A DNA stretch of 64,000 nucleotides, from NCBI GenBank assembly GCA_040757595.1, contig JBFLWP010000015.1, positions 1 through 64,000 of the forward strand, read 5' to 3'. Made by a program: the position numbers and the translations under genes. The stretch comes from Nitrospirota bacterium (GTDB lineage Bacteria > Nitrospirota > Nitrospiria > Nitrospirales > Nitrospiraceae). The notes below the pieces were generated by a model. That model was not told where the DNA came from, did not search any database, and saw only the letters and a list, made by a program, of their open reading frames with translations. This document shows positions 9,285 through 39,142 of the stretch, piece after piece. The stretch's first letter is position 1, and each line of letters begins with the position of its first letter.

Positions 9285-9959
9285 CTAATTGGGGATCACA
9301 AGGTTGGTCATGCGGTACCCGATCACCACGAACACGGTGTACTGATTGAAGTGCGTTTCCCCCTCGTACCACCGGGTCGAGAGGATGTGCCGTCCGGTCT
9401 CCCGCTCGGACACGTCCAGCAACAAGCGGATGAGGGCCTGGTTGTGCTCCTCCTTGAACAACGCGATCTCCGGCGTGGAAATGGGCAAGAGCGCGCTTTG
9501 CATGGACGGCAGCCCGATAAGGTTCTTCCCCTGCTCGGTGCCCAGGCTTTGGGCCAGCACCCGCACCAGGTAGGCGGCGTCTCTCTCCTGTTTCTGGACG
9601 CGCAGTCCCTGGGCCCCGAGGCGTTTGGCCACCATGTCCCGGACGAACGAGAGAAGCAGGGGCGGGCTCGGCGCGACGACGTCGATGGAGACGGTGGCCC
9701 CCTCCGGCAGCGGAAGGCTGATCGGGGCGACGCTCCGTTCCACGGCCTGGCTGAAGAGCAATTGCTCGATCGCGGTGCGCTGCTCCATCCAGTGAGACGG
9801 GTCTCGGGACATGGCGCAGCCCGTCAGCAGCGCCAGCAGGAGTGCTCCCCAGCCGAGGGATCTGCCGGCGAACCCTGCCGGGCCGTCGGTCCCTCTCCGC
9901 ACGGACGTTCTCGGCAAGCCGGACGGCATGGTCTCGCGCGGCGCGCCCGCTCGTCCCAT
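9285..9959 (-). CDS. Predicted lipoprotein of unknown function
   Basis: This is an outer-membrane-type lipoprotein of about 224 residues with lipobox LLALLTGC. A soluble domain follows (VSIDVVAPSPPLLLSFVRDMVAKRLG) ending in FVVIGYRMTNLVIPN. The ATG at 9959 forms a TGATG overlap with the stop of the upstream otsA-like gene. An ATG at 9929 would give a more usual signal-peptide length and is a good alternative. It is followed closely by a second lipoprotein gene. No domain recognised. Confidence 0.7.
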   Translation of the reverse strand: MGRAGAPRETMPSGLPRTSVRRGTDGPAGFAGRSLGWGALLLALLTGCAMSRDPSHWMEQRTAIEQLLFSQAVERSVAPISLPLPEGATVSIDVVAPSPPLLLSFVRDMVAKRLGAQGLRVQKQERDAAYLVRVLAQSLGTEQGKNLIGLPSMQSALLPISTPEIALFKEEHNQALIRLLLDVSERETGRHILSTRWYEGETHFNQYTVFVVIGYRMTNLVIPN

Positions 9960-11407
9960 CACACGGCGACTCCGTCAGAAAGGGGCGGCAGGATCCCCGC
10001 CTCCCGAAGACAGCTCGCCGTCCACGCATGGATGTCGTGGATGCGCAGATACCCGCGCATCGCGCGCATCCGCCGCCGCCGCTCCTCCGTCGGCATTTCG
10101 AGCGCTTGCGCGATGGCGTCGGCCGTGCCTTCCAGGTCGTACGGATTGATGACCAGCGCGTCGGTCAATTCCTCGGCCGCCCCGGCCATCTGGCTCACGA
10201 GCAGGAGGCCGTTCCCGTCAAACTGGGACGCCACGTATTCTTTTGCCGTCAGGTTCATGCCGTCACATGCCGAGCTGGCCAGGGCCAGCTCCGCCATCCG
10301 GTAGTACGCCACGCGCTCGACGAAGCCGATGCGGCCTTCAAGATATTCGATCGGCCGCCAGCCGCCTCGACCGAAGCGGCCGTTGATCTCGGAGACGGCC
10401 TGACGGACCACTTCCCCGCCGCGACCGGCGGCGTCTGCTTCGCTTCGGGTCTGGATTCCAATCAGAAGGAACGTGAACTTCCCGACATGGTGAGCGTGGC
10501 GGTCGAAGAACGTCTCGAGAGCCCACAGACGCTTGAGCAGCCCTTCCGTGTAGTCCAGACGATCCAGGCCCAGACCGAGCCGCACGCCGGTGACGAGCCC
10601 GAGCCGTTCCCGGATCGGAGCCATGGCCCGTTTGACGGCGGGAGTGTTGGCGATGCGCGAGATGGCGCGGAGATCCACGCTGGCGGGGTGCGCGACGACG
10701 CCGGTCCGGTGCCCCTGGTAGGCGACGACCGTCCCGGCCTCGTCCGCCTCGGCGTTCAGAAATTGCCTGGCGCAGTCCACGAACAGCTTGGCGGCACCGT
10801 GGGTCTGGAAGACCAGGCTGTCCGCGGCCAGCAGGCCTTCCAAGACCTCACGGCCCTCGGGCAGGATGCGAAACACGTTCGGGCCTGGCCAGGGAATGGG
10901 CCAGAACACCGCCACGTTCGCGGCGGGCCGGGCCGCTCTGATCAGCCTGGGGAGCAGTGCGAGGCGGAAATCGCGCACCCAGACCAGCCCCGGCCGACCG
11001 CGCGATGCCTCCAGCACGGCCCTGGCGGAACGTTCGTTGGCGGCGACATAGCCGTCCCAGAGCGTCTTCCGGTAGGCGATCCGGTCCAGTGCGATGTGGC
11101 AGAGCGGCCAGAGCACCTGGGCGGCATAGCCCGGGTCGCCTCCTTTTTCCTCCTGGCTCCACCGGACGCGACGCAGGCGCCAAGCGGGCGCGTTGGGCGG
11201 ACCCTCGATCCCGTCACGGGCGACGGCCGTTTCCCGATCATCCTCCCCGTTCTCCCACGATACCCAGGTCTCTCCGAACTGCTCCAGGATCGGGTCGAGG
11301 GCGGTCGTCAGCCCTCCCTCGGCCCTCTCGGAGGGGGTCCGTTCCGGAGCCAGCCGGTGTTCGGACGGCCGGTGATTGGACGCGACGACGAGGGATGGAC
11401 TCGGCAT
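9959..11407 (-). CDS. Degenerate trehalose-6-phosphate synthase homologue (GT20)
   Basis: This 482-residue protein aligns end to end with the intact OtsA at 14.9-16.4 kb, keeping the overall fold and DGMNLTAKEYVAS. Several active-site positions differ. The Arg of the SNR motif is His12. The HDFHL box reads RDFRL (145-149). The His of FxHIP is Pro170. The catalytic Lys after DRLDYT is Glu288. In E. coli OtsA the matching residues contact glucose-6-phosphate or UDP-glucose. It is therefore probably not a normal synthase; a regulatory partner or a decaying copy are options. ATG 11407 follows GGAAG. It overlaps the next lipoprotein gene. Confidence 0.85.
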   Translation of the reverse strand: MPSPSLVVASNHRPSEHRLAPERTPSERAEGGLTTALDPILEQFGETWVSWENGEDDRETAVARDGIEGPPNAPAWRLRRVRWSQEEKGGDPGYAAQVLWPLCHIALDRIAYRKTLWDGYVAANERSARAVLEASRGRPGLVWVRDFRLALLPRLIRAARPAANVAVFWPIPWPGPNVFRILPEGREVLEGLLAADSLVFQTHGAAKLFVDCARQFLNAEADEAGTVVAYQGHRTGVVAHPASVDLRAISRIANTPAVKRAMAPIRERLGLVTGVRLGLGLDRLDYTEGLLKRLWALETFFDRHAHHVGKFTFLLIGIQTRSEADAAGRGGEVVRQAVSEINGRFGRGGWRPIEYLEGRIGFVERVAYYRMAELALASSACDGMNLTAKEYVASQFDGNGLLLVSQMAGAAEELTDALVINPYDLEGTADAIAQALEMPTEERRRRMRAMRGYLRIHDIHAWTASCLREAGILPPLSDGVAV

Positions 11408-11444
11408 CCTGCTTCCTTCTATCTCTTTCGCCGCCCCGTGCCGG

Positions 11445-12111
11445 TCACGGCGACGCCGCTTCCGGTTTCGCATACCGGATGGCGGTCCCCTTCAACGAAT
11501 TGATCGTCTCCTCGTACGGCACGGCCGCGTAAGCGGGCCCGTAGCCCAGACCGCCGTAGCCGACCCCGCCGTAACCCCAAGGATCAGGCCCGTAGTAGGG
11601 CATGATCCGCCCACTGCTCGCCGAGCCTGGCCCTTTGATCGGGGCTCTCCGCGGCCTGTCGGAGCAGCTCCCGAGCCAGCTCCAGATGGTCTCGCTGCAA
11701 CACCCACTGTTGCCGGCGAAGGCGCCAAGCGGACAGATCCAGGGCTTGCAGGTCGTTGAACGTGGAGCCGGCCCGGTCCGGCGGCCGCTCCAGGTCCGGC
11801 ATCCGCTTGTCGAGACCCTCGATGCTGGCCGTCAGTTGCGCGATTCGGCCCGCGTCGTCAGGGTCAGTCCGGAAAGCACGAGAGACTCTGTTGAGGGCAG
11901 CCATACCAGGTCGGCGGACCAGGATACGGGCTGCTCGGCAAGTCCCATGGCCCGATTTCCCGATAGTAGGGCCGCGGATAGACCGGATGTCTCCCGTACG
12001 GATAAGGACCCGGCGGCGGGGACACGCCGTCGCCGCCGCAGCCGGCCATGACCGCCACGAGAAGCCCGACGAGCAGCCCCGTGATGCTTGGAGACGTCGC
12101 GCAGTTTCCAT
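11445..12111 (-). pseudogene. Probable frameshifted Tyr/Gly/Pro-rich lipoprotein gene
   Basis: Fragments in all three frames line up. An ATG at 12111 follows GGAGG. Another frame gives a lipoprotein signal (GLLVGLLVAVMAGC) and a PYPYGRHPVYPRPYY-rich part ending at 11864. A third piece, MAALNRVSRAF, runs on as a coiled helical segment (11904-11584). A final YYGPDPWGYGGVGYGG segment of 52 codons ends at 11445. The pieces overlap slightly, as expected for small indels in one ancestral lipoprotein. Three genuine overlapping small genes are less likely. Sequence errors could also explain it. Confidence 0.45.
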
Positions 12112-12740: not shown

Positions 12741-13817
12741 TCAGATCAGGTCGTGAGCCAACCGGCCGTTCGACGGGATGGCGACACGCTCCGTCGAGCC
12801 GACGAGCTGCTCGTACACGCGCAGGTAATCCTGCGCCATCCGCTCGACCGTGAACCGTTCATCAAACGCCCGCCGACACCGGGACCGGTCGATCTGCGAT
12901 ACTCGCTGCACGGCGTCGGCCATGCGGCCGAGATGGTCGCACACGAAGCCGGTGCAGCCGTCCTCGATGATCTCGGGTATCGAGCCGCGGCGGTACGCCA
13001 GCACGGGCGTCCCGCAGGCCAAGGCTTCGATGAAGACGATCCCGAACGGCTCGGGCCAGTCGTAGGGGCAGACAAGGGCGTAGGCGTCGCCGAGAAAGTC
13101 GTTTTTCTCGGCGTCCGTGATTTCGCCGACGTATTCCACCAGCGGGTGGTTCATGAGCGGCTCGATTTCGGCGCGGAAGTACTCACGGTCGGCCGGGTCC
13201 ACTTTCGCGGCGATGCGCAGGGGCATCCCCGTGCGCTTGGCGACCTCGATCGCATGGTCCGGCCGCTTCTCCGGCGAGATCCGTCCGAGAAAGGCCAAAT
13301 ATCGGCCCGGCCCGGAACGGAAGGTGTAGAGGTTCCGGGGCAGCCCGTGGTGCACCGTCGCCTGCCAGTTGGCCCACGGCATCGGCCGACGCTGGGCGTC
13401 GGAGATGGACACCAGGGGCATCTCGGCAAATTCCCGGAAGACCGGCTGCAGCTCGGGCAGGTCCAGCCGGCCGTGGAGGGTCGTCAGCACCGGCACGTGG
13501 CACCGCCGGGCCAAAGGGAAGCCCAGGAAGTCCAAGTGGGAGTGGATGACGTCGAAGTCGCCCGGCGACCCGAACGCCTGCTCGAGCAGCATGATCAGCG
13601 GCGCATCTCGGTTGAAGATCCCCGTGTTCAGACGGAGGGCTTGAGGACAGACGGCCCGAAGCTCGGCGTCCGTCACCGAGTCTCCGCTTGCAAACAGCAC
13701 GACCTCGTGCCCCAGCCGGGTCAGTTCTTCGGTGACGTAGGACACGATCCGCTCCGTGCCGCCGTAGAACCTTGGCGGAACGCTCTCCCATAAGGGCGAG
13801 ACCTGCGCGATTTTCAT
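12741..13817 (-). CDS. GT4-family glycosyltransferase
   Basis: This 358-residue GT-B retaining glycosyltransferase has an N-terminal acceptor domain (KIAQVSPLWESVPPRFYGGTER with the Gly-rich loop; HSHLD) and a C-terminal donor domain (YLAFLGRISPEKRPDHAIE, then EPFGIVFIEALACGTPV with the E-x7-E pattern). It resembles family members acting on sugar-nucleotides near trehalose genes. ATG 13817 follows AAGGAG. It is the last gene of the trehalose block on this strand. Acceptor is not predictable. Confidence 0.9.
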   Translation of the reverse strand: MKIAQVSPLWESVPPRFYGGTERIVSYVTEELTRLGHEVVLFASGDSVTDAELRAVCPQALRLNTGIFNRDAPLIMLLEQAFGSPGDFDVIHSHLDFLGFPLARRCHVPVLTTLHGRLDLPELQPVFREFAEMPLVSISDAQRRPMPWANWQATVHHGLPRNLYTFRSGPGRYLAFLGRISPEKRPDHAIEVAKRTGMPLRIAAKVDPADREYFRAEIEPLMNHPLVEYVGEITDAEKNDFLGDAYALVCPYDWPEPFGIVFIEALACGTPVLAYRRGSIPEIIEDGCTGFVCDHLGRMADAVQRVSQIDRSRCRRAFDERFTVERMAQDYLRVYEQLVGSTERVAIPSNGRLAHDLI

Positions 13818-14119
13818 CCCCTGTCTCCTTCACGTGGTGGTTCGCGCAGACTCCGGACCTTTCCCCTGCGTTCTCCGCGCGACGTGGTGATTGATCGAGC
13901 CGTCTGGGCGGCCTTCCGGGACGCTTTCCTCCTACACACTTAACAAACGGATTCCCCGCTTCCAATGGACAAGATTTGGTTGCGTACGTGAAAATGTCCA
14001 GTGGCGAGAGAGGGGAAAAACCCCAGGTGAAACGGGGGATTACGAGAGATTCCGAGAGACGGTCGGCGCGGTTGCCGGGACGCCCGCCTTCCGCGGGGAG
14101 GAGCCCTCGCCAGGGCCAG
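13818..14119. other. Intergenic region with structured repeat
   Basis: About 300 bp separate otsB from the glycosyltransferase gene. Apart from the GGACAA/TGTCCA repeat at 13967-14002, I see no gene or clear promoter. The segment just 5' of the repeat is locally AT-richer than the surrounding DNA. Confidence 0.5.
13967..14002. repeat. GGACAA-N18-AAAATGTCCAGT repeat, copy 1
   Basis: TGGACA and TGTCCA form an inverted pair with fixed spacing. A second copy in the same orientation lies at 24141-24176 with identical motif spacing (18 nt). Both are preceded by CCGCTT-TCC-like sequence. The pattern resembles repeated transposase-binding ends of IS21-type elements, but no transposase is nearby. Confidence 0.65.
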
Positions 14120-14902
14120 TCAGGGCTCTCGCGTGCTTCGCTCCGCCAGCCGGCGCAGCAACGAAAGGACGGTCGCCGGCCCCGGCACCCACGCCCCTTC
14201 GCCGGCCGCGTCTCGCCGCCCGCCGACCCGCACCGCCAGCCCCCGTCCCCGCACGACGCGGAAGGCGGGGAAGTCCGTGCGGTCGTCCCCGAAATAGACA
14301 GGCACGCGTCCGCGCGCCCACGGTTCCTTCAGCAGGCGGGCGACGGCGGTCCCTTTGTTCCACGGCCCAGGCGGCCTGGCCTCCAGCACGCGCTTGCCGC
14401 GGAGCAGCACTGCGGCTCCGCTTCGGAGCCAGGGGGCCAGGGCTTGCCGGGCCCGCCGCCTGAGGCGCCGGCGTCGGGCCGGGCTGACCGCGCGGTCGTG
14501 CAGGGCGACGCTGTGTTCCTTGTCCTCAATCAGGGCGCCCGGAACTTCGGCCGCCGCAGCCGCGAGCGCGCGGATCCACGAGCGGACCGTCTTCCGCGGG
14601 GCCGGACGTCCCAGCCAGCGGGCGGTCGAGCCGTCTTCCTGATAGAGGAGTCCGTGGCAAGCCACGTACCGGAGCTCCGGCAGCCCGACCCGCCGCCGCA
14701 AGTCGGAGAGTGCCCGGCCGCTGACGATCACGACCGGGATCGAGCGGGCCAGCCGGCGCAGGACCTGCCGGACGGAGGCGTGCAGTCGCGCGTCGCATGG
14801 CCGCCGAACGATCGGCGTCAACGTGCCGTCGTAGTCGAGAAACAGGAGCAGCCGGTGAAGCGGCAGGGCCGCCAGCCTGGCGCGGAGCGAGGGGCGCCTC
14901 AT
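14120..14902 (-). CDS. otsB: Trehalose-6-phosphate phosphatase OtsB
   Basis: This 260-residue HAD-superfamily phosphatase removes phosphate from trehalose-6-phosphate. Motif I is LFLDYDGTLTP (nucleophile Asp23, Asp25), motif II IVSGRALSDL, and motif IV VYFGDDRTDFPAF. The cap region contains EDKEHSVALHDR, typical of the family. ATG 14902 overlaps the otsA stop by 4 bp (ATGA), so it is translated with it. The protein is Arg-rich, reflecting very high local GC. It completes the OtsAB pathway. Confidence 0.95.
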   Translation of the reverse strand: MRRPSLRARLAALPLHRLLLFLDYDGTLTPIVRRPCDARLHASVRQVLRRLARSIPVVIVSGRALSDLRRRVGLPELRYVACHGLLYQEDGSTARWLGRPAPRKTVRSWIRALAAAAAEVPGALIEDKEHSVALHDRAVSPARRRRLRRRARQALAPWLRSGAAVLLRGKRVLEARPPGPWNKGTAVARLLKEPWARGRVPVYFGDDRTDFPAFRVVRGRGLAVRVGGRRDAAGEGAWVPGPATVLSLLRRLAERSTREP

Positions 14903-16353
14903 TCCGCAGCAGCTTCCTGGGGAATCGGCAGGACCAGGCCGGCCTCGCGCAGGCAGCGTACGACCCACATGTGGACATCGTTGGCCTGGAGATGTCTGCG
15001 CATCGCTTGCATCCGGCGGTGCCGCTCCGCCATCGGCATCGCGAGCGCTCGCGCAACGGCGTCGGCCGTGCCTTCCAGGTCGTAGGGATTGATGATGAGG
15101 GCTTCAGTCAACTCTTCCGACGCGCCGGCCATCTGGCTCACGAGCAGCGCGCCCTCTCCGTCCGTTTGAGAGGCCACGTACTCCTTCGCGACCAGATTCA
15201 TCCCGTCATAGACCGAGCTGACCAGGGCCAGGTCCGCCATGCGGTAGCAGGCGACCAGCGTCTCGAAGCTGATCCGGCCTTCCAGATAGGCGATGGGCCG
15301 CCAGCCGTCGCGACCGTACCGGCCGTTGATTTCGGCCACGGTCTGGCGGATCATCTCGCGATAGCGGCGGTAGGCCTCCACCTCGCTCCGCGTCGGGACT
15401 GCGATCTGGACGAAGGTGAACCGGCCCGCATACTGCGGGAAGCGGTCGAAAAACGTGTCCAGCGCCCCCAGGCGCTTGAGCAGCCCTTTCGTGTAGTCCA
15501 ACCGGTCCACGCCCAGCCCCAGCCGCACCTCCGGGCCGAGATGGAGCCGCTCCTTGATCTGGACCATCGCCCGCTTGACGGCCTGGGTCTCCGCCGTCTC
15601 GGAGAAGCTCCGGAAGTCCACGCTGATGGCGTGCGCGGCGAGGCTGGTCCGATGCCCCTTGTAGTCGATGGCGGTCCCGCCGTTTCCCACTTCGGCCTTC
15701 AGGAATTGCCGGGCGCAGTCGGCGAACAGCCGGACGGAGTCGGCGGTCTGGAAGACCAGGCTGTCCGCCGCCAGCAGTCCTTCCAAGATCTCGCGTCGTT
15801 GGGGCAGGATGCGGAACACGTCCGGGCCCGGCCAGGGGATGTGCCAAAACATCGCGATCGTGGTGCCGGGACGGGCGTTGCGGAGCAAGCCCGGCAGCAG
15901 GGCGAGGTGGAAATCGTGGCCCCAGACCAGCCCCGGACGCTCCCTCAGCTCGTCCAGCACGGCCTCGGCGAAGCGCCGGTTCATGGCGGCGTAGCTCTCC
16001 CAGAACGTCTTCCGGTAGGTCACCCGGTCCAACGTGATGTGACAGAGGGGCCAGAGCACTTGGTTCGCGTAGCCCAGGTATCCGCCCTTCACCTCGTCCT
16101 CGCCCAGCCAGACGCGATGGAGCCGGTAGGTCGGCGCCTCGGGCGGCACATCGAGACCCGCCCGGGCGTCCACCGGCTCCCGATCCCCGTCCCCGCTTCC
16201 CCACGCGACCCAGGTCCCGCCGAGCCGCCTGAGCACCGGGTCGAGGGCCGAGGTCAGGCCGCCGTCGGTCCGCTGGCACGTGAGCTGTCCCTTGACCCGC
16301 CGATGCTCGTACGGCTCGCGGTTCGACACGACGATGATGGGTGGGTTTGGCAT
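14899..16353 (-). CDS. otsA: Trehalose-6-phosphate synthase OtsA (intact copy)
   Basis: This 484-residue GT20 enzyme makes trehalose-6-phosphate from UDP- or ADP-glucose and glucose-6-phosphate. All signature sites are present: VVSNREPYEH, GHDFHLALLPG, FWHIPWPGPD, GVDRLDYTKGLLKR and YDGMNLVAKEYVAS. ATG 16353 follows GGGAG with good spacing; a GTG one codon upstream is also possible. It overlaps otsB at its 3' end and lies 34 bp after the debranching fusion gene. It is the obvious source of the altered paralogue at 10-11.4 kb. Confidence 0.95.
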   Translation of the reverse strand: MPNPPIIVVSNREPYEHRRVKGQLTCQRTDGGLTSALDPVLRRLGGTWVAWGSGDGDREPVDARAGLDVPPEAPTYRLHRVWLGEDEVKGGYLGYANQVLWPLCHITLDRVTYRKTFWESYAAMNRRFAEAVLDELRERPGLVWGHDFHLALLPGLLRNARPGTTIAMFWHIPWPGPDVFRILPQRREILEGLLAADSLVFQTADSVRLFADCARQFLKAEVGNGGTAIDYKGHRTSLAAHAISVDFRSFSETAETQAVKRAMVQIKERLHLGPEVRLGLGVDRLDYTKGLLKRLGALDTFFDRFPQYAGRFTFVQIAVPTRSEVEAYRRYREMIRQTVAEINGRYGRDGWRPIAYLEGRISFETLVACYRMADLALVSSVYDGMNLVAKEYVASQTDGEGALLVSQMAGASEELTEALIINPYDLEGTADAVARALAMPMAERHRRMQAMRRHLQANDVHMWVVRCLREAGLVLPIPQEAAAE

Positions 16354-16387
16354 CACGGTCTCCCTTGGGCTCCCCGCTCACTCCATT

Positions 16388-19300
16388 CTACTCGATCACC
16401 ACGATCTCGACGTCCCCTTCCCGGCGGGCCACGGCGATCTCGACATTCTGCTTGCCGCGCCTGAGGTAGAGGTCCACCGAGGCCGTTCCGACCCTGAGGT
16501 TCGCGATCTGAATCTCCGGCAGGAAGTCCGGCAGGACCGGGCGGAAGAAGGAGACTTTCCCCGGCTGCGCCTGGATCGAAAGGCCCAGGGCCGCCTGCAG
16601 GAGCAGGAACACCGCCGCGGCGGACCAAGCCTGCGGCGCGCAGGACACGGGATACAGGCAGGGCCCCTCGCCGTGCCTGCGGACAAATCCGCACAAGAGC
16701 TCGGGCAGCCGGTGCAGATCCAGAAACGCCGTTGCATCGAAGAGCCCGCGCAGGATGGCGAGGGCCTGGTCCTTGAATCCGTACCGGGCCAGCCCCATGG
16801 CGATCAGCGCATTGTCGTGCGGCCAGACCGAGCCGTTGTGGTAGGACATGGGGTTGTAGCGCGCCTCCGACTCGCCGACGGTGCGGATCCCCCATCCTGA
16901 GAACATCGCCGGCTCCAAAAGAGTGCCGGCGAGCTGCCGGGCCTGTTCGTCGGAGGCGATCCCGGCCCAGAGGCAATGTCCCGCATTGGAGGTCCGCACC
17001 GCACAGGGTTGTTTCTTGCCGTCGAGCGCCAACGCGTACGTGGAAATCCCTTCGCACCAAAAGGCCTTCTGGAACCGCTCCTTGAGGTCTTCGGCTTGAC
17101 GCAGCAGGTCCTCGGCCCGGTCCCCGTTTTCCAGCGCCACGGCCAGCGCCGCCGCGCTCCGCTTGGCGGCATAGACGTAGGCCTGGACCTCGCAGAGGGC
17201 GATCTGCCCTTCCGCCAGCGTGCCGTCCGCGTGGAACACCGCGTCGCGCGAGTCTTTCCATCCTTGATGCGTCAGGCCCCGCGAGGAGTGCCGGACATAC
17301 TCCACAAAACCGTCCGCGTCGCGGTCGCCGTAGGTGTCCATCCAGCGCAGCGCGAGGTCCAGGTTGGGCCAGATGGCCTCGATGAGCGCGCGGTCGCCGG
17401 TCCGCTCATAGTAGGCGCCGGCCAGCATCACGAAGAGCGGGGTCGCGTCCACGCTGCCGTAATACCGTCCGAACGGGACCTCCCCGAGCGCGGGCACCTC
17501 CCCCTTGCGGGTTTCGTGGAGGATTTTGCCCGGTTCGGCGTCCTGCTCGGGAATCTCTTCCCTGGCCTGCGTCGCCGCGAGGAAACCGAGAACCCCTCTG
17601 GCCAGTTCGGGGTTGACCCACAGGTACTCCAGCGCCGTGACGATGCCGTCGCGTCCGAACGGGGTGCTGAACCAGGGAATCCCGGCGAAGGGATAGGGGC
17701 CTTCGAGGGTCTCCGTAACCATCATGTGGAGATCCGGGCGGGCTCGATTGAGCCAATCATTGAATTGCTCGTTGGCGGTCTGAATGTGGCAACCCCGGGC
17801 CACAGCCGTGTCCAGGGATGTTCTGGCCTCGAAGAAGGCTTGATCGTAGGCCAACGGGGGGGAGGGCGGTCGGCCACCAAGCTCGCAGGAAATGGTCAGA
17901 AAGAACTCGGTACGTTCCCTCGGCTGCAGAAGGGCCTCGAAGACCACCTGGGACGGAGACAGACTCGCCGGTTGCGGCGTGCAGGCGACACGGGTCTGCC
18001 GAGTGACTCCGTCGAGCCCCTCGTAGCCGAGAAGCAGCGTCCCGTCCTGGACCGGATCGGCCAGGCGGCGGCCTCGTCGAGCCCGTTTCAGGCCCCGGAC
18101 TTCAAAGATGTCGGCGAAGTCCGCGTCGAGCTTGCAAGTAAGCCTGGCGGGGAGCGGTACGGGCCCGTAATTGGCGATCCGAAACCGCTCATAGCAGACG
18201 CCCCGCCACAGGAATTTCGACCGGAACAGGTGTACGGTGTCTCGCTGGATCGACATGTGGCTGTCGGTGCGGATGTCCGGGTTCGTCAGATCGACGGTGA
18301 ACAGCGTGTTGTCTTCCTTGACCGTGGAGCCCAGCAGCAGGGGACGGCGGTCGTTCAGGGTGAGCTCCAAGCGCGAGAGGAACCGAGTCCCCTCGTGGTA
18401 CAGCCCTTGATAGCCGAGTCCCACGGGATGGATGTCCCCGGCCCGGTTGAAGACGGCGAACGTCTCGCCTTGCTTGAGCACGCGGGTGCGGTCGTCCACG
18501 ATGGTGGAAGTGGCGAGAATATAGTACCCGTCTTGCGCCCGGACGATGTCGTCGGTGAGGGCTCCCGTTCGGAAGGGCCGGGAGGCGGCATCGGCCGTCG
18601 CGGTTTTCCGACGGCTGAAGCGGTGGCAACAGAGACCGCCTCCGAGGAGGAAGAATCCGACGCCGATGAGGCAAAGGCGAGCGCCCAGCGTATCGGCGAT
18701 CCATCCAAAGCCCGTCATCCCGGCCATCGCCGAGACCGTCCCGCCGGTGTTGAACGTGGTGAACATGCGGCCGCGCAGGTTCGTGGGGGTCAGCTCCTGA
18801 AGCAACGACCACACGACGGGCATGAACAGGCCCGTGCTCACCCCGATGACGGCGACCGCCATGGCCGCGAGGAGCGGAGCCTGGAGCAGGCTGAGTCCCC
18901 AGACCGCCGCGCCGCCGACGGCCATGGAAGCGGAAAGAACGCGGAGTCGGCTGGCGAGGGCCCGGGGCTTCATCCACAGCAGCCAGGCCGACGCGGCCAG
19001 CATGCCGGCGCCCAGGGCCGACCAGATCGCTCCCAACTCGATGGGGCCGATGTGCAGCAGTTGCTTGGCGTACACGGGGAGCAGGAAGATGAAGCCGCTG
19101 GCCGCCAGACTGTAAAGGGCGGCCGCGATCATCAGGGTGGAGATGATGCGCTGCTGGACGAACACGAAACGAAAGCCGGCGAGCAGATCCTGCCAGACCG
19201 TTCGTGACGCGGCCTCCCTGGCCGGCACCACGGCTTCCCGCATCCGAATCGACATCAAGAATGCGGCGGAGGCAAAGTTGCAGGCGGCGTCCAGGTACAG

Positions 19301-19867
19301 CACGTTCTGGGCGCCGACGAACGCGATCCCAAGACCGGCGATGGCGGGTCCCGCCAGCACCCCGATGTTCGTCGTGATCTGCAGAAAGGCGTTTGCCGCC
19401 GTCAGCCGCTGCCGGTCGACGATCAGCGGGACAGCCGATGCCAGCGCGGGACCGAAGGCCGAGCCGAGGATCGCGATCAGCAGGACCAAGAGATACAGCC
19501 GTTTCAGGGTGAGCGCGTCGAGGGCGTAGAGGACGGGGATCAGCAGGATCAAGGTCCCCTGAATGAGATCGATGGCGATCATGATCCGTTTTTTCGGCAT
19601 CCGGTCCAGGTAGACCCCGATGAGCGGGCCGAGCACCAGCGGAGGGAGCGTCTCGAGCAAGCCGACCACGGCCATCTTCAGCGCCGATCCGGTCAGCTCG
19701 TAGACGAACCAGAGGAGCGCGACCTTGACCAGCCCGTCTCCGATCTGGGAGATGGACTGTCCCACGAAGAGCAGGCGGAAGTCGCGTGCCTTGAGCAGGC
19801 GCCAGCCGACATCCCGTGCTTCAGTCGGAGACGGGCAACCCTCGTCCGCAGGCGCGGCGCGCCTCAT
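16388..19867 (-). CDS. MFS transporter fused to glycogen-debranching amylo-alpha-1,6-glucosidase
   Basis: This is a single 1159-residue frame. Residues about 24-430 are a complete MFS_3-type transporter with 10-12 membrane segments (ARDFRLLFVGQSISQIGDG at the start, GMTGFGWIADTLG near the end). It is very close to the free MFS at 22.4-23.7 kb. Residues about 445-1159 are a COG3408-type debranching enzyme: N-terminal beta domain (YYILATSTIVDDRTRVLK) and alpha/alpha barrel (WFSTPFGRDGIVTALEYLW, WKDSRDAVFHADGTLAEGQ, YNPMSYHNGSVWPHDN). No stop or frameshift separates them. ATG 19867 overlaps the upstream MFS stop. If expressed as read, the enzyme domain is held at the inner membrane, probably on the cytoplasmic side. 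The transported solute is unknown. Confidence 0.93.
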   Translation of the reverse strand: MRRAAPADEGCPSPTEARDVGWRLLKARDFRLLFVGQSISQIGDGLVKVALLWFVYELTGSALKMAVVGLLETLPPLVLGPLIGVYLDRMPKKRIMIAIDLIQGTLILLIPVLYALDALTLKRLYLLVLLIAILGSAFGPALASAVPLIVDRQRLTAANAFLQITTNIGVLAGPAIAGLGIAFVGAQNVLYLDAACNFASAAFLMSIRMREAVVPAREAASRTVWQDLLAGFRFVFVQQRIISTLMIAAALYSLAASGFIFLLPVYAKQLLHIGPIELGAIWSALGAGMLAASAWLLWMKPRALASRLRVLSASMAVGGAAVWGLSLLQAPLLAAMAVAVIGVSTGLFMPVVWSLLQELTPTNLRGRMFTTFNTGGTVSAMAGMTGFGWIADTLGARLCLIGVGFFLLGGGLCCHRFSRRKTATADAASRPFRTGALTDDIVRAQDGYYILATSTIVDDRTRVLKQGETFAVFNRAGDIHPVGLGYQGLYHEGTRFLSRLELTLNDRRPLLLGSTVKEDNTLFTVDLTNPDIRTDSHMSIQRDTVHLFRSKFLWRGVCYERFRIANYGPVPLPARLTCKLDADFADIFEVRGLKRARRGRRLADPVQDGTLLLGYEGLDGVTRQTRVACTPQPASLSPSQVVFEALLQPRERTEFFLTISCELGGRPPSPPLAYDQAFFEARTSLDTAVARGCHIQTANEQFNDWLNRARPDLHMMVTETLEGPYPFAGIPWFSTPFGRDGIVTALEYLWVNPELARGVLGFLAATQAREEIPEQDAEPGKILHETRKGEVPALGEVPFGRYYGSVDATPLFVMLAGAYYERTGDRALIEAIWPNLDLALRWMDTYGDRDADGFVEYVRHSSRGLTHQGWKDSRDAVFHADGTLAEGQIALCEVQAYVYAAKRSAAALAVALENGDRAEDLLRQAEDLKERFQKAFWCEGISTYALALDGKKQPCAVRTSNAGHCLWAGIASDEQARQLAGTLLEPAMFSGWGIRTVGESEARYNPMSYHNGSVWPHDNALIAMGLARYGFKDQALAILRGLFDATAFLDLHRLPELLCGFVRRHGEGPCLYPVSCAPQAWSAAAVFLLLQAALGLSIQAQPGKVSFFRPVLPDFLPEIQIANLRVGTASVDLYLRRGKQNVEIAVARREGDVEIVVIE

Positions 19868-21162
19868 CGCTCGCCCAGGTGCGCCGTCTCAGGGACTGCC
19901 AGCGGCGCCGGCGCCGGCCGCCGGAGGCTGGCCCAGTGGCTGAGGGCCGAGGCGGCGAGCGCCGTGATGAAGAGCATCGCTCCGATGCCGACCACGCTCA
20001 CCCGTTCGCCGAACTCGCGGGTGGTCCATCCGAAGAAGGTCATGCCCGCCACCGCCGAGGCCATGGCTCCGGTCGAATAGACCGCCAGCGCCCGCCCGAC
20101 GATGCCCGACGGGGAGATCTCCTGCAGCACGCCCCAGGCGATCGGGGTCAGGGCCCCGAAGCCGATCCCGATGACGCTCATCAGCAGGCCGGCGAGAATC
20201 CGGTCCTGGACCCAGACGAGCCCGCAGAGGGCCGCCCCGCTGACCGCGCTCGAAGTCGAGATGACCCGCACCCGGCTCGGCAGATCCCATTCGGTCAGCC
20301 GGACGAGCCCGAACGAAGCGATCAGCAGCCCGACCCCCAGGGCCGACCACAGGTACCCCACCTCCACCGGTCCCAGGTCCAGCATTTTTCTGCCGAACAC
20401 CGGAAAGAGCGTCGTGAAGGCGCTGGTTCCGAACGTGTACAGAGCGGCGGTGCCGGTGAGGACCAGGATCGTCGGCTGCTCCACCAGCGCGAACCGAATC
20501 CCCTCGATCAGGTCCTGCGTCATGGAGGACGGAGCAGCCCGTTCGCCGGCGGGCGCCGCACGGGCGAAGCGGACCGGCACGAAGCAGGCGGCGGAGGTCA
20601 GGTAGGAAGCCACGTTCACGCAGAGGACCTCCTGTGGACCCAGCACCGCAATTCCCAGCCCGCTCAGCGCAGGTCCCACGATGATGCCGAGGCTCGTGGT
20701 GCTCTGGAGCAGCGCGTTGGCGGCGGTGAACTGGGGCCGGGCGACGATCAGGGGCACGGACGCGGAAAGGGCCGGCCCGAAGATCGCGGACGCGACCGAG
20801 TGGAGGAACACGAGGAGATACAGGTTCTCCACGGTGAAAGTTTGCACCGATACCAGGCAGGGAATCAAGCCGAGCACCAGCGCGCGGAGTACGTCCATCG
20901 AGATCAGGATCGGCTTCTTGGGCAGCCGGTCGACGAAGACTCCGATCAGAGGGCCGAAGAGGATCGGCGGGATCGTCTGCAGGAGGCCGATTACCGTGGT
21001 CTTGATGGGGGAACCGGTGACCGAGTACACGAACCAGAGGAGCGCCAGCTTGGAGACGCCGTCCCCGACCTGTGCGATCATCTGCCCCCACCAGACCAGG
21101 CTGAAATCCCGCGTGAGCAAGCGGCGTCGCCGGCTCGGAGCGTCCTCCTGCGTCCATCCCAA
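19864..21162 (-). CDS. MFS transporter (MFS_3 / enterobactin-exporter-like fold)
   Basis: This 432-residue 12-helix permease begins with LTRDFSLVWWGQMIAQVGDGVSKLALLWF, and the A-motif region GVFVDRLPKKPIL follows helix 2. It is paralogous to the MFS half of the fusion and to the MFS at 22.4 kb, but is the most divergent of the three. TTG at 21162 is chosen because GGGAGG lies 6 nt upstream; the nearby ATG at 21157 is in another frame. The stop overlaps the fusion gene start (ATGA). Substrate unknown; sugar or siderophore-type export is possible by family. Confidence 0.88.
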   Translation of the reverse strand: MGWTQEDAPSRRRRLLTRDFSLVWWGQMIAQVGDGVSKLALLWFVYSVTGSPIKTTVIGLLQTIPPILFGPLIGVFVDRLPKKPILISMDVLRALVLGLIPCLVSVQTFTVENLYLLVFLHSVASAIFGPALSASVPLIVARPQFTAANALLQSTTSLGIIVGPALSGLGIAVLGPQEVLCVNVASYLTSAACFVPVRFARAAPAGERAAPSSMTQDLIEGIRFALVEQPTILVLTGTAALYTFGTSAFTTLFPVFGRKMLDLGPVEVGYLWSALGVGLLIASFGLVRLTEWDLPSRVRVISTSSAVSGAALCGLVWVQDRILAGLLMSVIGIGFGALTPIAWGVLQEISPSGIVGRALAVYSTGAMASAVAGMTFFGWTTREFGERVSVVGIGAMLFITALAASALSHWASLRRPAPAPLAVPETAHLGER

Positions 21163-21219
21163 TTGCAGCCTCCCTGATCTCCAGCGATGCGGCCCGCGGC
21201 GGTTGCCCGCCCTCGCCGG

Positions 21220-21960
21220 TCAGTCCCCGGCGCTCACGCGCACCGCGTCCGTGTGCACGGCCCTGACCCCCGGGACCTGCCGCGCGGCTTCCGCCGCTTC
21301 GAGCACGATCACCTGGAAGCGCGTGGTGCCGCTCAACGAGACGATCCCGTTCTCGGTCTTCACGTCGAAGTTGGCCGCCTCCAGGGTCTTGCTCTTGGCA
21401 AACCGGTCCTTGACGTACTGGGTGATGATCTCGTCCTGCTTCCGCGCCAGCGTGGCGTGCAGCCCCTTGGCGACCTCCAGCAGGTTCGAGACCGACTTGA
21501 CGCCGCCCACGCGGGACGCGACCTCCGTGGCCGCCAGTTTCTCCTCCTGGCTCGACACCTTCCCCGCGAGCACGGCCTCAGAGCCGTGCAGGTCCACGTC
21601 GATCTCGTAGGGAAACAGGCGGGAATCCGCCATCAGGGCCAGTTTGACCTTCAAGATCGTCGAGCCGGCGGGCCACGGGGGCGTCGGCTCCCGGGTTTTC
21701 GCGGGAGTACCGGCCGGGACGTCTGGTTTCGGTGTCCCGTCCGGCTTCGCTTGCCCTTCGGGTTTGGCCGCGGGAGCCTCGGGGCTCTTGGACTCCGGCT
21801 GCCTCTGCTCGATCACCCGTTGTTCGCCCGAAGGCGCCTTGGAAGACTCGGGTGCCGGTGCGGGACCGGGATCGGCGGCCGGGGCGGGCAGGGCCAGGGC
21901 CAGGAGGACGATCGGCATTGTCGTCAGACAGGACGCTCGCGCGCGACGCTGTGTCATCAT
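21220..21960 (-). CDS. Exported BON-domain protein
   Basis: This protein of about 246 residues has a signal peptide (ALALPAPAA), a Pro/Ala/Lys-rich linker of about 80 residues, and two BON domains: LKVKLALMADSRLFPYEIDV...VGGVKSVSNLL and VKDRFAKSKTLEAANFDVKTENGIVSLSG...VPGVRAVHTD. BON domains bind membranes or lipids and occur in osmotically induced OsmY-like periplasmic proteins, which fits the trehalose context. Tandem ATGs at 21960/21957 are plausible starts. It lies 57 bp upstream of the MFS gene. Confidence 0.88.
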   Translation of the reverse strand: MMTQRRARASCLTTMPIVLLALALPAPAADPGPAPAPESSKAPSGEQRVIEQRQPESKSPEAPAAKPEGQAKPDGTPKPDVPAGTPAKTREPTPPWPAGSTILKVKLALMADSRLFPYEIDVDLHGSEAVLAGKVSSQEEKLAATEVASRVGGVKSVSNLLEVAKGLHATLARKQDEIITQYVKDRFAKSKTLEAANFDVKTENGIVSLSGTTRFQVIVLEAAEAARQVPGVRAVHTDAVRVSAGD

Positions 21961-22090
21961 GTCGTCTTCTCTGTGGAAGAACCGGGCGGGGAGGAGGCAG
22001 GCGCCGATCCTACGGCGCAAGCCCGGACGCGTCCGCGGCCGTCGTCGCCGCGGCGGGATCGGGCCGGTCCGCCAACCGGAAGCGGTCTGC

Positions 22091-22305
22091 TTACTGCATC
22101 GCCTTCACCGGCACGGCTGTCCCGTTCGCCGCCACCTTCGCTTCGATCTTCGTGTCCTTCTCCAGGTTGAGCAGGTGCTCTTCCTTGACGCTTCCTTCAC
22201 GACGCGCGCGTTGGCGGTGATCATCATCACCGCGTCCTTGACGGTCTGCGAGTCGGAGTTTGCCGAAGTCCGGATCGGGTGGACCGTCGCGCGATCGCCG
22301 AACAC
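22091..22305 (-). pseudogene. Small exported protein family, frameshifted copy (member 3)
   Basis: GTG 22305 lies just after AGGAGG. One frame gives TVKDAVMMITANARVVKEAS; the next gives KEEHLLNLEKDTKIEAKVAANGTAVPVKAMQ to a stop at 22091. Inserting one base near 22188 would join them into the family domain seen at 12.3 kb. It also lacks a hydrophobic signal and has lost about 8 residues before the last strand. A broken duplicate is the simplest reading. Confidence 0.75.
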
Positions 22306-22370
22306 GCCTCCTCCCTCCGCGCCGCGAGACCCGGAACGGCGTCATCGGCCCGGTCCTCGGTGAACGGGCG

Positions 22371-23663
22371 TCAGCGGGAGGCCAGGGGGCTGGGGGCAGG
22401 CCCGCTCCGTCGGCTCAACTGGGCCGCAACGGTGGCTGTTCCGAACAGGATCAGGCTGATGCCCAAAAGACTGGCGGTCGGGCCGATCGCATCCGCCGCC
22501 CACCCGAACCCGGCCATTCCGGCCATGGCGGACGACATCCCGCCCGTGCTGAACGCCGTGAACACGCGTCCCAGGAGATGGTTCGGAGTGAGTTCCTGCA
22601 GGACGCCCCAGACGACGGGGATCAGCATGGCCGTGCTGCCCCCGATCACCATGATCAGCAGGGTGGCCAGGAGGGGAGTCTCGAGGACGCTCAGGCCGCA
22701 GACCGCCAGCCCGCCCACGGCCATGGAACGGGAGACGATCCGCATGCGCTCGCGCAGGCCGCTGTGCCGCGCCCAGGCCAGCCAGGCCGACGCGGCCAGC
22801 ATGCCGCCGCCCAGCGCCGACCAGAGCAGGCCGAGCTCCAGCGGCCCGAAGCGCAGCAGCTCCTTGGCGAACACCGGCAGCAGGAAGACGAACGCGCTCG
22901 TGCCCAGGCTGTAGAGGGTCGCGATGAGCATGAGCGTGAAGACCGTCCGGTGCTGCACGAACACGAACCGGAATCCCACCGTCAGCTCCTGGAACAGGGA
23001 ACCGGAGGTCCGGGCCGTGCGGGCCGCGCGGGATTCACCGACCCTGATCGGGATCAGGCAGAGGGCGGAGATCAGGAAGGTGGCGGCGTCGAGATAGAGG
23101 ACGTTCTGGGCCCCCGCCAGCACGATGCCCAGGCCGCTGACGGCCGGCCCCACGATCATCCCGATGTTGGCCGTCCCCTGCAGCAGGGCGTTGGCCGCGG
23201 TGAGCTGGGTCGGGCGCACGATCAGGGGGACGGCCGAGGCCAGCGCGGGACCGAACACCGTCGAGACGACCGCGATCACGAAGACCAGCACGTACAGGAT
23301 CTCGAGGGTCAGGGCGTCCAGGGCATAGAGGAAGGGGATCAGCAGGACGAGGAACGTCCGGGCCACGTCCACCCAGATCATGACCCGCTTCTTGGACAGC
23401 CGGTCCAGGTAGACGCCGATCAACGGGCCGAAGACCAGGGGGGGAACGGTCTGCAGGAGCCCGATCGCCGTCATCTTGAGCGCCGATCCGGTCAGCTCGT
23501 AGACGAACCAGAGCAGCGCGACCTTGTTGAGGCTGTCGCCGATCTGGGAGATCAGCTGTCCGCTGAACAGCAAGCCGAAGTCGCGGGTCTTGAGCAGGTG
23601 CGGCGCAAGCGGCTGTCCGGACCGGTTCTCTCGGCCTGCGCTCTCCGCAACACCCTCCAGCAT
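22371..23663 (-). CDS. MFS transporter (MFS_3), close paralogue of the fusion's transporter half
   Basis: This 430-residue 12-helix permease begins with KTRDFGLLFSGQLISQIGDSLNKVALLWF. The region FGPLIGVYLDRLSKKRVM nearly repeats the fusion protein's GPLIGVYLDRMPKKRIM. It ends without any enzyme domain. ATG 23663 is preceded by a purine-rich GGGGCGG. The resemblance suggests the fusion arose by duplicating this gene next to a debranching-enzyme gene. Substrate unknown. Confidence 0.9.
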   Translation of the reverse strand: MLEGVAESAGRENRSGQPLAPHLLKTRDFGLLFSGQLISQIGDSLNKVALLWFVYELTGSALKMTAIGLLQTVPPLVFGPLIGVYLDRLSKKRVMIWVDVARTFLVLLIPFLYALDALTLEILYVLVFVIAVVSTVFGPALASAVPLIVRPTQLTAANALLQGTANIGMIVGPAVSGLGIVLAGAQNVLYLDAATFLISALCLIPIRVGESRAARTARTSGSLFQELTVGFRFVFVQHRTVFTLMLIATLYSLGTSAFVFLLPVFAKELLRFGPLELGLLWSALGGGMLAASAWLAWARHSGLRERMRIVSRSMAVGGLAVCGLSVLETPLLATLLIMVIGGSTAMLIPVVWGVLQELTPNHLLGRVFTAFSTGGMSSAMAGMAGFGWAADAIGPTASLLGISLILFGTATVAAQLSRRSGPAPSPLASR

Positions 23664-23763
23664 GGTCCGCCCCTATTCGTACATCCGGAATAGGCCTGCA
23701 TCATGCGCTCGACCGTAGGCCGTTCCTCGAAGACCCGGCGGCCGCGGCGAAGGGCGGATCCTG

Positions 23764-24075
23764 CTACGACGCCGGCTTGATCGACAGCGCCAGACCGTTG
23801 GCCGAGACTTCCGCCTCGATCTTTTCCCCGGGGACGATCATGCGGTCGAGCTTCGTGTTCTTGTCCGTCCGGAGGCGTATGAACCGTCCCTGCAGATCCC
23901 TGACGACGTAAATGTCCGCCTCGATCTTCAGGAGCTCGCCCTTGAGGATGTAGGACGAGGCCGCCGGCTGCCCGGCGGCCGAAGCGGCCAGCACACCCCG
24001 GATGCAGCACGCCGCCAGGAAGGCCAGCGGACGAGGGAACGCCTTGTCCGCCCTGACCGGTTCAGGAGAGCCCAT
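23764..24075 (-). CDS. Small exported protein, dispersed family member 4
   Basis: This 103-residue protein has a signal peptide ending near VLAASAAG and the family domain (LKGELLKIEADIYVVRD, LDRMIVPGEKIEAEVSANGLALSIK). ATG 24075 is chosen because the upstream part of the open frame is the translation of the 24.1-kb repeat and so unlikely to be coding; the ribosome-binding site is weak. It sits between TreT and the MFS gene. Function unknown. Confidence 0.8.
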   Translation of the reverse strand: MGSPEPVRADKAFPRPLAFLAACCIRGVLAASAAGQPAASSYILKGELLKIEADIYVVRDLQGRFIRLRTDKNTKLDRMIVPGEKIEAEVSANGLALSIKPAS

Positions 24076-24140
24076 GGGCCGCAACCCGCTTTCGCCATCA
24101 CGCTTTTGGACCTTATCAATCCGCTCCGCTTTCCTCCAGT

Positions 24141-24176
24141 GGACAAAATCGGAATGGTGGCCGGAAAATGTCCAGT
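24141..24176. repeat. GGACAA-N18-AAAATGTCCAGT repeat, copy 2
   Basis: Same orientation and spacing as copy 1 at 13967-14002; the similarity extends about 10 bp further upstream. The two copies enclose 10.2 kb carrying otsB, otsA, the MFS-debranching fusion, both MFS genes, the BON gene and two small exported-protein loci. Confidence 0.65.
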
Positions 24177-24262
24177 CGGCGGGAGGCTGGCGCTCCACGG
24201 TCGACACTTCCACCGCCGTGGGCCCTCCTCAGGGGCGGGCCGGTTCCGGGTTTCCGGACCGG

Positions 24263-25462
24263 TCAGCGGCAGAGGTGGATCATCAGTCCCAGGTAGTCTT
24301 GCAGATGGCGGGTGATGAGGAATCGGTGGCGGGCGTACTCCCTCCCCCGGCGGCCGATGGCTGCCATCCAGTCGGGCTCGTTCAGGAGGCGTTTGGCGTA
24401 GAATGCGGCTCCTTCGGGGGAATTCACCGTGTAACCCGTCGTGCCGGGGATGATCTGCACCATGATGCCGCCGGTTTGCCCGCCGATCACGGGCTTTCCC
24501 TTCCAGAGGGCTTCCGCCACGGTCAGCCCGAACCCCTCCCTGGTGGATTTCTGGAACACGATCGCGGCAGCCCGCTGCAGGGCGTTGATTTCGACGTTCG
24601 CGGTCGGCGGCAGGAGCAGGATGTGGACGTCGGGATCGGTCCCGGCCGCTTGCTGCACCTCCGCCAGCACTTCCGCCCCTTCCGGGTCGTCGGCCGCGGT
24701 GCCGCCCGCCAGGACCAGCCGGCAGTCGTGGCTCTTCTTCACGAGCCGATAGGCCTCGACGACGCCGACCGGGTCCTTGAACCGGTCGAACCGGGAGACC
24801 TGCAACAGGATCGGCTTGTCGCGCGGGATACCCAGCCGGCGCAGGATCCGATCCACCTCCTCGGCCGGCAGCTCGCGGTTCTTGTCGCTGAGCGGGTCAA
24901 TGGAGGGGTAGACCAAAACCTGCGGGATGGGCAGGCGCTGCGCGAACTTGGGGAGCGAGACGACCGCGGCGTCGTAGCGGACCACGTAGGGGCGGAGAAA
25001 CTGCCAGACCGACCGCTGGGGCGTCGAAAGGTCGATGTGGCACCGCCAGATCCACTTGGCCCCGGGCTTGCGAACCTCGATCAGGGGAGCCGGCTGGGGA
25101 TCGTGGATCATGACCACGTCCGCGCTCAGGTCCAAGCGCTCCGCGTTCTCGCGGTTGCACGCCAGGTAGGCCTCGTACATGTCGGCCGTGATGTGCTGTC
25201 TGGTCCCCTGGAGCGCGTTGTGGAAGCTCTTGGTCGTCCGGTAGAAGGCGTCCGACCCCGTGACCACCTCCCATCGGGCCTCGATTCCCAGTTCCTGGAA
25301 CATCGGCACCATGCGCTGGAGGATCTCCGCCACCCCACCGCCGTACCGAGTCGAGTTGACGTGAAGCATCCGCTTCCGTTTGAGGCTGCGGGCCAGCCGT
25401 TTCAGGAAATCCACGGTCCCCTGAGGTGCGACCTCCCGATAGTCTTCGAGAGTGATGCCCAT
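24263..25462 (-). CDS. treT: Trehalose glycosyltransferring synthase TreT
   Basis: This 399-residue GT4 enzyme forms trehalose directly from NDP-glucose and glucose, and can work reversibly. Diagnostic segments are LHVNSTRYGGGVAEIL, WEVVTGSDAFYRTTKSFHNALQG, HDPQPAPLI, and the donor-site QVSRFDRFKDP plus STREGFGLTVAEALWKGKPVI. ATG 25462 has GGGAGG 7 nt upstream; the long upstream extension is shadow sequence. The next gene 5' is a DUF5752-like partner. It gives a second trehalose route beside OtsAB. Confidence 0.94.
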   Translation of the reverse strand: MGITLEDYREVAPQGTVDFLKRLARSLKRKRMLHVNSTRYGGGVAEILQRMVPMFQELGIEARWEVVTGSDAFYRTTKSFHNALQGTRQHITADMYEAYLACNRENAERLDLSADVVMIHDPQPAPLIEVRKPGAKWIWRCHIDLSTPQRSVWQFLRPYVVRYDAAVVSLPKFAQRLPIPQVLVYPSIDPLSDKNRELPAEEVDRILRRLGIPRDKPILLQVSRFDRFKDPVGVVEAYRLVKKSHDCRLVLAGGTAADDPEGAEVLAEVQQAAGTDPDVHILLLPPTANVEINALQRAAAIVFQKSTREGFGLTVAEALWKGKPVIGGQTGGIMVQIIPGTTGYTVNSPEGAAFYAKRLLNEPDWMAAIGRRGREYARHRFLITRHLQDYLGLMIHLCR

Positions 25463-25485
25463 CGCCGGTCCTCCCGTTCCTCCGT

Positions 25486-26154
25486 CTATCGTGCCGCCAG
25501 CGCCTGGTCGCACAGTCGCACGACGCGTTCCCGGACCCCCTCCAATCCCAATCCCAGGCGCCCCACCTTCACCACCTGCTCGGCCAGCTCCGGCATGTCC
25601 AGCCCCTCCTTGGCCAGGAACCAACAGGCAAAGTCGCCCGGCAAGCGCCCTTTGCGCATGCGCGCCTCACAGACGTGATTGTAGATCGCGCCGGCTTCCA
25701 CCCTCGCCAGGCCGTCGCGGAATTCCTGGAGCGTCCAGACCTCCATCCCCAGGTCCACCTCGATGACGTGCGAGCGGATGAACTCGAAGGGCTCGCCCGC
25801 CACGATGCGGGGGATGGTTTTCAGCCGGCTCAGATGCTCCGCGACGATGCCCGCGATCTCCGCGCGGAGGGCTTCCAGGCCTTCGTGTTCGAACGGATCG
25901 ATTGCGGCCAACCGCTCCCCCAGGATGGGGTCCTGCACCTGGACGGCGACCCAGGTGGCGAAATCGTTGGGGTAGAGGCCCCGGAGGTAGGCGTGCCGCA
26001 GGAAATAGCTGTGGGTATGGTAATAGATCGAATCGAGCGGCACCTCCTCGATCAGCTCTAATAGACGCTGCTCGTCGTGGGCGCGGACGCCCATGATCTC
26101 GCGCAGTTCCATGCAACTGACGAACCGGAAGGGTGTCTGTGCGCGCCTGCCCAT
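25486..26154 (-). CDS. DUF5752-like conserved protein next to TreT
   Basis: This 222-residue cytoplasmic protein begins FRFVSCMELREIMGVRAHDEQRLLELIEEVPLDSIYYHTHSYFLRH. It contains a repeated pattern SHVIEVDLGMEVWTLQEFRDGLARV... and ends with a helical tail. It fits the family annotated as DUF5752, often found beside trehalose synthases; I rely on memory of that layout. His-rich IYYHTH and conserved acidic residues may form a metal or sugar site (inference). ATG 26154 has AAGGAGG upstream. It is 23 bp upstream of treT. Confidence 0.8.
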   Translation of the reverse strand: MGRRAQTPFRFVSCMELREIMGVRAHDEQRLLELIEEVPLDSIYYHTHSYFLRHAYLRGLYPNDFATWVAVQVQDPILGERLAAIDPFEHEGLEALRAEIAGIVAEHLSRLKTIPRIVAGEPFEFIRSHVIEVDLGMEVWTLQEFRDGLARVEAGAIYNHVCEARMRKGRLPGDFACWFLAKEGLDMPELAEQVVKVGRLGLGLEGVRERVVRLCDQALAAR

Positions 26155-28232: not shown

Positions 28233-28240
28233 CTCAACCC

Positions 28241-28371
28241 GTGACGCGTGATGCGTGATGCGTGATCAGCATGATGAGTCCGAAAACGCGCAAAGCCTTT
28301 TCTCTATAGATTGCGCCGCATCCTTTCTGTTGTCTCTCTTTTTTCCACTCGTCACCCATCACCCGTCACGT
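28241..28371. repeat. Intergenic heptamer inverted array (locus 2)
   Basis: The left arm GTGACGC, GTGATGC, GTGATGC, GTGATCA (28241-28268) is mirrored by right-arm TCGTCAC, CCATCAC, CCGTCAC near 28349-28370. About 80 bp of unrelated, AT-richer sequence lies between. It is directly 3' of the permease stop and 5' of the ATPase gene. Confidence 0.8.
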
Positions 28372-28375
28372 CTCC

Positions 28376-39039: not shown

Positions 39040-39126
39040 CGCGTGACGGGTGACAAGCGATGACGAAAAGACTCAGAGACGCTTCCGATTCTTTACGCGT
39101 CACGTGTCACGCATCACCTGTCACGG
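39029..39126. repeat. Intergenic heptamer inverted array (locus 3)
   Basis: Left arm GTGATGA, GTGACGC, GTGACGG, GTGACAA, GCGATGA; right arm GCGTCAC, GTGTCAC, GCATCAC, CTGTCAC. The pepA stop (39037-39039) lies in the second unit. A long stem could form between the arms. Confidence 0.85.
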
Positions 39127-39142
39127 TCTGGTGTGGCTGCCG

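Follow-up and report, generated by a model that had tools for sequence, protein, structure and literature searches.

A predicted fusion of an MFS transporter and a debranching-type glucosidase encoded beside trehalose genes in a Nitrospiraceae genome

Introduction

Proteins that combine an MFS transporter with an enzyme are already known as a kind. In the LplT-Aas system, an MFS lysophospholipid flippase and an acyltransferase are encoded by neighbouring genes in many genomes and are fused in some (PMC11416262). In E. coli, the two proteins have been shown to associate in a complex, and a local coupling between them has been proposed (PMC11416262). Gene fusions are good evidence of functional partnership, and the fusion described here suggests that its transporter and its enzyme work together.

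The fusion joins an MFS transporter to a debranching-type glucosidase (GDE) and is encoded in a 64,000-nucleotide stretch of DNA, referred to below as the window, from an uncultured bacterium within the Nitrospiraceae. An earlier note on this DNA stated that no described example of such a combination was known. This holds for the pairing itself, since no MFS–glycoside hydrolase fusion, MFS–GDE included, was described in the open-access papers searched, where a search for GDE_N_bis likewise returned nothing relevant. It does not hold for MFS–enzyme fusions in general, of which LplT-Aas is an example. What we report is the MFS–GDE combination, for which no report was found, in a single genome.

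Results

One frame encodes a complete transporter and a complete glucosidase

The reverse strand of the window contains one open frame of 1159 codons at positions 16388-19867, with an ATG start, a stop codon at 16388-16390 and zero internal stops. The encoded protein consists of a complete 12-helix MFS transporter (residues ~24-427; 18587-19798) and, joined to it by a short flexible linker, a complete GDE_N_bis/MGH1-like debranching-type glucosidase (residues ~446-1159; 16391-18532), the latter composed of a GDE_N_bis beta domain and an (alpha/alpha)6-type glucosidase domain. Both halves are matched by Pfam models above their cut-offs: MFS_3 (residues 24-436; 126.4 bits, cut-off 27) and MFS_1 (residues 33-383; 101.4 bits, cut-off 33.4) in the transporter half, and GDE_N_bis (residues 464-657; 203.4 bits, cut-off 22.1), MGH1-like_GH (residues 743-1044; 91.9 bits, cut-off 27) and GDE_C (residues 726-1086; 37.8 bits, cut-off 21) in the enzyme half. 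The latter has the layout of COG3408-type debranching enzymes, GDE_N_bis followed by a glucosidase domain, each over its cut-off. The initial reading of a transporter and a debranching enzyme continuous in a single frame is thus confirmed.

The structure of the fusion was predicted with AlphaFold2 from an alignment of 32 sequences that included read-through tandem MFS-GDE pairs. The model (mean pLDDT 84.5, pTM 0.63) comprises two well-predicted halves with a low-confidence stretch between them (residues 422-459, pLDDT <50); a pTM of this size gives no prediction of how the halves are placed relative to each other. Twelve long helices lie within residues 28-427, and the C-terminal half forms a beta domain followed by a helical barrel. 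The best fold match of the enzyme half is 7vma (Z 49.5, rmsd 2.8, 610 aligned residues, 35% identity), and the MFS half matches MFS antiporters including SotB, NorA and VMAT2 (Z 34-38).

Because the number of helices in the MFS half is even, both of its termini, and hence the enzyme half, are expected to face the cytoplasm. For the same reason, the trimming of an oligosaccharide at the mouth of the channel, raised as a possibility at the outset, would be feasible on the cytoplasmic side only. Since the free GDEs also have no evident leader at the N end, the fusion would not move the enzyme out of the free GDE's compartment but would tether it there to the membrane.

The fusion lies in a cluster with two free transporters and trehalose genes

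In the direction of transcription, the cluster begins with a TreT-like trehalose synthase (GT4; 24263-25624), followed by a free MFS, here called P0002 (22371-23663), a BON-domain protein (21220-22020), a second free MFS, P0003 (19864-21162), the fusion, otsA (GT20, trehalose-6-phosphate synthase type; 14899-16356), otsB (trehalose-phosphatase; 14120-14968) and a GT4 glycosyltransferase (12741-13817), all on the reverse strand. The fusion is directly upstream of otsA-otsB, in agreement with its original placement in an ots operon. A sugar ABC importer of the MalK/BPD/BPD/SBP type is encoded at 27093-31472 on the same strand. In consensus promoter and terminator scans of positions 13900-25700, hits were about as numerous as in shuffled sequence, and none of the sites split the genes of the cluster. 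In the BON-domain protein, the hydrophobic N-terminal stretch after MMTQRRARA, judged by eye, suggests a putative signal peptide. P0003 starts with TTG, an ATG alternative (19889-21157) lying in another frame and not being the gene; its TGA overlaps the ATG of the fusion by 4 bases (ATGA).

Several further genes of the window were noted. A second OtsA-like GT20 gene (9959-11473, reverse strand) belongs to the same cluster as the one at 14899-16356 and TreT, and these three genes appear to offer redundant routes to trehalose or a related glucoside. A GH3 glycoside hydrolase gene (39050-40258, forward strand), immediately preceded by an M17 aminopeptidase gene, overlaps an MFS gene of the Atg22/MFS_1 type (40255-41547, forward strand) by 4 bases, forming another glycosidase-MFS neighbour pair, unfused. 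At 51189-55628 (forward strand), a 1479-aa protein is encoded after a 777-aa fn3-domain protein; it combines a G8 domain with a CEMIP-type beta-helix, a content unusual for a relative of Nitrospira.

The closest paralogue of the fused MFS half in the genome is P0002. The two had been described as nearly the same; they are 61% identical. P0003, which the earlier note did not mention, is 45% identical to the fused half.

Every residue that does not vary among the other 31 aligned GDEs is kept in the enzyme half, including GWKDS (870-873), E893, WPHD (1015-1018) and LPE (1056). The MFS half retains a motif-A-like DRMPKKR and 118 of the 133 positions invariant among 40 P0002-type MFS proteins (89%, with ~11% changed); at least 95% were kept in leave-one-out controls. 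Judged by this retention of invariant residues, neither half is decayed, and the MFS half is, at the sequence level, a constrained yet faster-evolving duplicate. Because it evolves fast and 11% of otherwise invariant positions are changed, its transport function may be changed or lost. The nearest named subfamily is the TIGR00900 / 2A0121 'H+ antiporter' model, to which the fusion scores 209.9 bits, below the cut-off of 319.6; this proximity suggests efflux and proves no substrate.

These observations bear on the possibility that the MFS half is a mere membrane anchor for the GDE, its own transport lost or irrelevant and the work done by the free P0002 and P0003. Both free transporters are still intact in the same operon, and the fused half sits on a long branch and has lost 15 of the 133 clade-invariant positions, as an anchor might. 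However, its complete fold, the preserved DRMPKKR and the retention of most invariant positions are more than an anchor needs, and we regard this explanation as rather unlikely.

The GDE is a separate gene in relatives and the fused transporter is an additional copy

A family-wide search detected GDE_N_bis in 99 of 175 Nitrospiraceae genomes; the counts were 76 of 246 for Nitrospirota, 33 of 299 for the phylum to which Aromatoleum belongs and 8 of 199 for that of an Acidobacteria record. The MFS-GDE fusion was found in the window only, with none other among the 175 Nitrospiraceae genomes or the wider phylum samples. Each of the 20 regions read whole (that of G049 on a short contig) and each of the best 80 loci of a scan of GTDB r220 has the GDE as a gene of its own. 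Among plasmids, the enzyme half has 231 matching records, none of which covers 80% of the query. Absence from all close relatives had been named beforehand as an argument against the fusion; it is indeed absent from every relative examined, its genus being represented by one genome, a single assembly in 36 contigs.

Several candidates for further fusions were rejected. Apparent full-length fusions in six genomes (G034, G040, G049, G024, G032 and G056), with 53% identity over the whole length, are two genes with one in-frame stop between them that was read through by the search. Frames able to hold both halves, of at least ~1050 codons, occurred in the window and in G030, G441 and G645. The long GDE frames of G030 (1087 codons), G441 (1109), G645 (1054) and also G131 (939) are GC-rich and over-extended: they run across the upstream gene in a different frame and are not MFS fusions.

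In Nitrospiraceae relatives, the GDE belongs to a conserved cassette with the order GT4-MFS(P0002 type)-BON-MFS(P0003 type)-GDE. Outside Nitrospirota, the loci read contain a GT4-GDE pair without an MFS; the orthologue of the window's GT4 gene at 12741-13817 precedes the P0002-type MFS in relatives and the GDE itself outside the phylum. Orthologues of P0003 lie directly upstream of the GDE: where the start assignment was clear, the spacing ranged from an overlap of 4-20 bases to ~150 bases, as read from 60-odd locus records, several of them from the same genomes. Because a P0003-type MFS adjoins the GDE upstream in these records, MFS and GDE are conserved partners. A complete Nitrospira-type GT4-MFS-BON-MFS-GDE cassette was also observed on a 14.9 kb contig of Nitrosomonas communis Nm44 (NZ_FOUB01000077.1), with horizontal transfer or short-contig contamination as alternatives.

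The window differs from this arrangement by an additional MFS between P0003 and the GDE; this extra copy is the one joined to the GDE. In a maximum-likelihood (ML) tree of 89 MFS proteins, the fused half lies inside the P0002-type clade with support of 100/100, which rules out the P0003 type, the usual upstream MFS, as its donor and upholds the duplication origin proposed earlier from an MFS of the kind found at 22.4 kb. Its end branch is long (1.18 vs 0.43 for P0002 and P0003), and the grouping with G021 as its sister is uncertain (88/83). One alignment, whose MFS-only rows had been misplaced on the enzyme half, was set aside.

The enzyme half, for its part, sits on an ordinary branch. Its nearest relative with a readable start, G030/L063, is unfused; the free GDEs of the Nitrospira cassette are 58-70% identical to it, and the highest local identity, 70%, is to the GDE of G021 (L135, G021:C226). 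The G021:C226 contig begins inside the GDE gene and has a P0002-type MFS downstream. By sequence, the enzyme half is native. The tree placement, the position of the extra MFS and the codons at the joint together point to a duplication of a P0002-type MFS into the gap between P0003 and the GDE, followed by the loss of a stop and a start codon.

A further explanation is that gene crowding produced the fusion as a neutral accident, in which adjacent, co-translated genes merged and the halves work as before with nothing gained from proximity. In relatives, the preceding MFS and the GDE often share a frame and are separated by a single stop and 9-15 bases, and the fusion was found in one species only, both of which are in keeping with such an accident. 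Simple stop loss is nevertheless insufficient, because the fused partner is a new copy of the other MFS type, and we consider a neutral merger unlikely.

The joint has lost the start codon of the enzyme

Free Nitrospira GDEs start with MNDVIRLKDQYYIL, four codons past the in-frame stop of the preceding MFS, where the window reads TDDIVRAQDGYYIL. The codon aligned with their start ATG is ACC (Thr438; 18554-18556), a two-base difference that replaces the start methionine by threonine. The joint as a whole (residues 420-446, FSRRKTATADAASRPFRTGALTDDIVRAQD; 18530-18610), predicted with low pLDDT, contains no stop in any frame and no in-frame ATG, GTG or TTG. No such start codon occurs in the enzyme's frame over residues 385-456 (~70 codons), and stop codons are absent from all three frames over residues 395-474, so that an indel at the joint would not end the MFS.

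Two products could be made after all, by initiation at a non-canonical or distant internal start or by proteolysis of the linker, which is basic and predicted to be unstructured. GTG codons are present at 457 and 463. Neither is preceded by a Shine-Dalgarno-like sequence, and starting at either would remove the YILA-SS segment conserved at the N end of free GDEs, which makes separate products improbable.

A sequencing error at the joint had also been listed as a possible undoing of the fusion. Given the ACC in place of the start ATG, the lack of an in-frame canonical start and the lack of a stop in any frame, a single error is unlikely by this sequence reading, and a frameshift or missed stop was rejected as a single event. 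An artefact in general, whether a missed stop, an indel or a chimeric join, would fit with a single metagenome-type assembly and with the absence of the fusion from all relatives examined, but appears very improbable: one base change cannot restore both the MFS stop and a canonical GDE start, the genome contains a single copy of the joint DNA, the MFS half and P0002 are too dissimilar for a repeat-driven misjoin, and the GDE is native.

Discussion

We consider it likely that the frame represents a genuine, lineage-specific fusion in which an efflux-type MFS carries a cytosolic alpha-glucosidase tethered on its cytoplasmic side. A P0002-type MFS copy would have come between the P0003-type MFS and the GDE of the conserved cassette, and loss of the intervening stop and of the GDE's own start codon would have yielded the single 1159-residue protein. 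The product would be an inner-membrane protein with a 12-helix transporter, both of whose termini are cytoplasmic, and with the C-terminal alpha-glucosidase hanging on the cytoplasmic face via the flexible linker. Such tethering would impose a 1:1 stoichiometry and membrane localisation on the enzyme. The neighbouring glycosyltransferases may make a glucoside or oligosaccharide that is cut beside the transporter, before export of the product or just after import.

Because otsA, otsB, TreT and the sugar ABC importer adjoin the fusion, trehalose-linked or maltooligosaccharide-like alpha-glucosides would be the first substrate candidates; substrate and transport direction are here suggested by the gene neighbourhood. 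The likely gain is a local coupling of glucoside hydrolysis to transport, by analogy with LplT and Aas. A more far-reaching possibility, which we put forward tentatively and regard as doubtful, is that the protein is the first bifunctional MFS-glycosidase, whose two halves have evolved to function together and physically link, at the membrane, the transport of a trehalose-related or maltooligosaccharide-like glucoside to its cleavage, and that the conserved separate MFS-GDE pair of Nitrospira works as the same complex.

The fusion ties together an efflux-type MFS and a debranching-type glucosidase, which many Nitrospira encode in separate, neighbouring genes. This leads to the hypothesis that MFS and GDE share a glucoside as their substrate, which is testable in cultured Nitrospira with the unfused cassette.

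Among known systems, LplT-Aas resembles the fusion in that its MFS precedes an enzyme, soluble or peripheral, located at the cytoplasmic face, with single-ORF fusions represented by NCBIfam NF006386/NF005291. Its enzyme is an acyltransferase/acyl-ACP synthetase and not a glycosidase, and its substrates are of another class; the MFS half of the fusion matches the two models weakly (50.1 vs a cut-off of 1221 for NF006386 and 40.4 vs 1349 for NF005291). The cyclic beta-1,2-glucan synthase (8rf0/8rfe, ~2770-residue chains in nanodisc), a weak fold match, is likewise a membrane protein with an (alpha/alpha)6 carbohydrate-active domain in the chain, but it is not an MFS, and its domain is of the GT/phosphorylase type and makes glucan. 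The closest solved structure to the enzyme half, the amylo-alpha-1,6-glucosidase of T. gammatolerans (7vma), is a soluble, stand-alone enzyme without a transporter. The GT4-MFS-BON-MFS-GDE cassette of Nitrospira shares both its gene families and its neighbourhood with the fusion locus; there, however, MFS and GDE are separate, and the MFS before the GDE is of the P0003 type, whereas the fused one is of the P0002 type.
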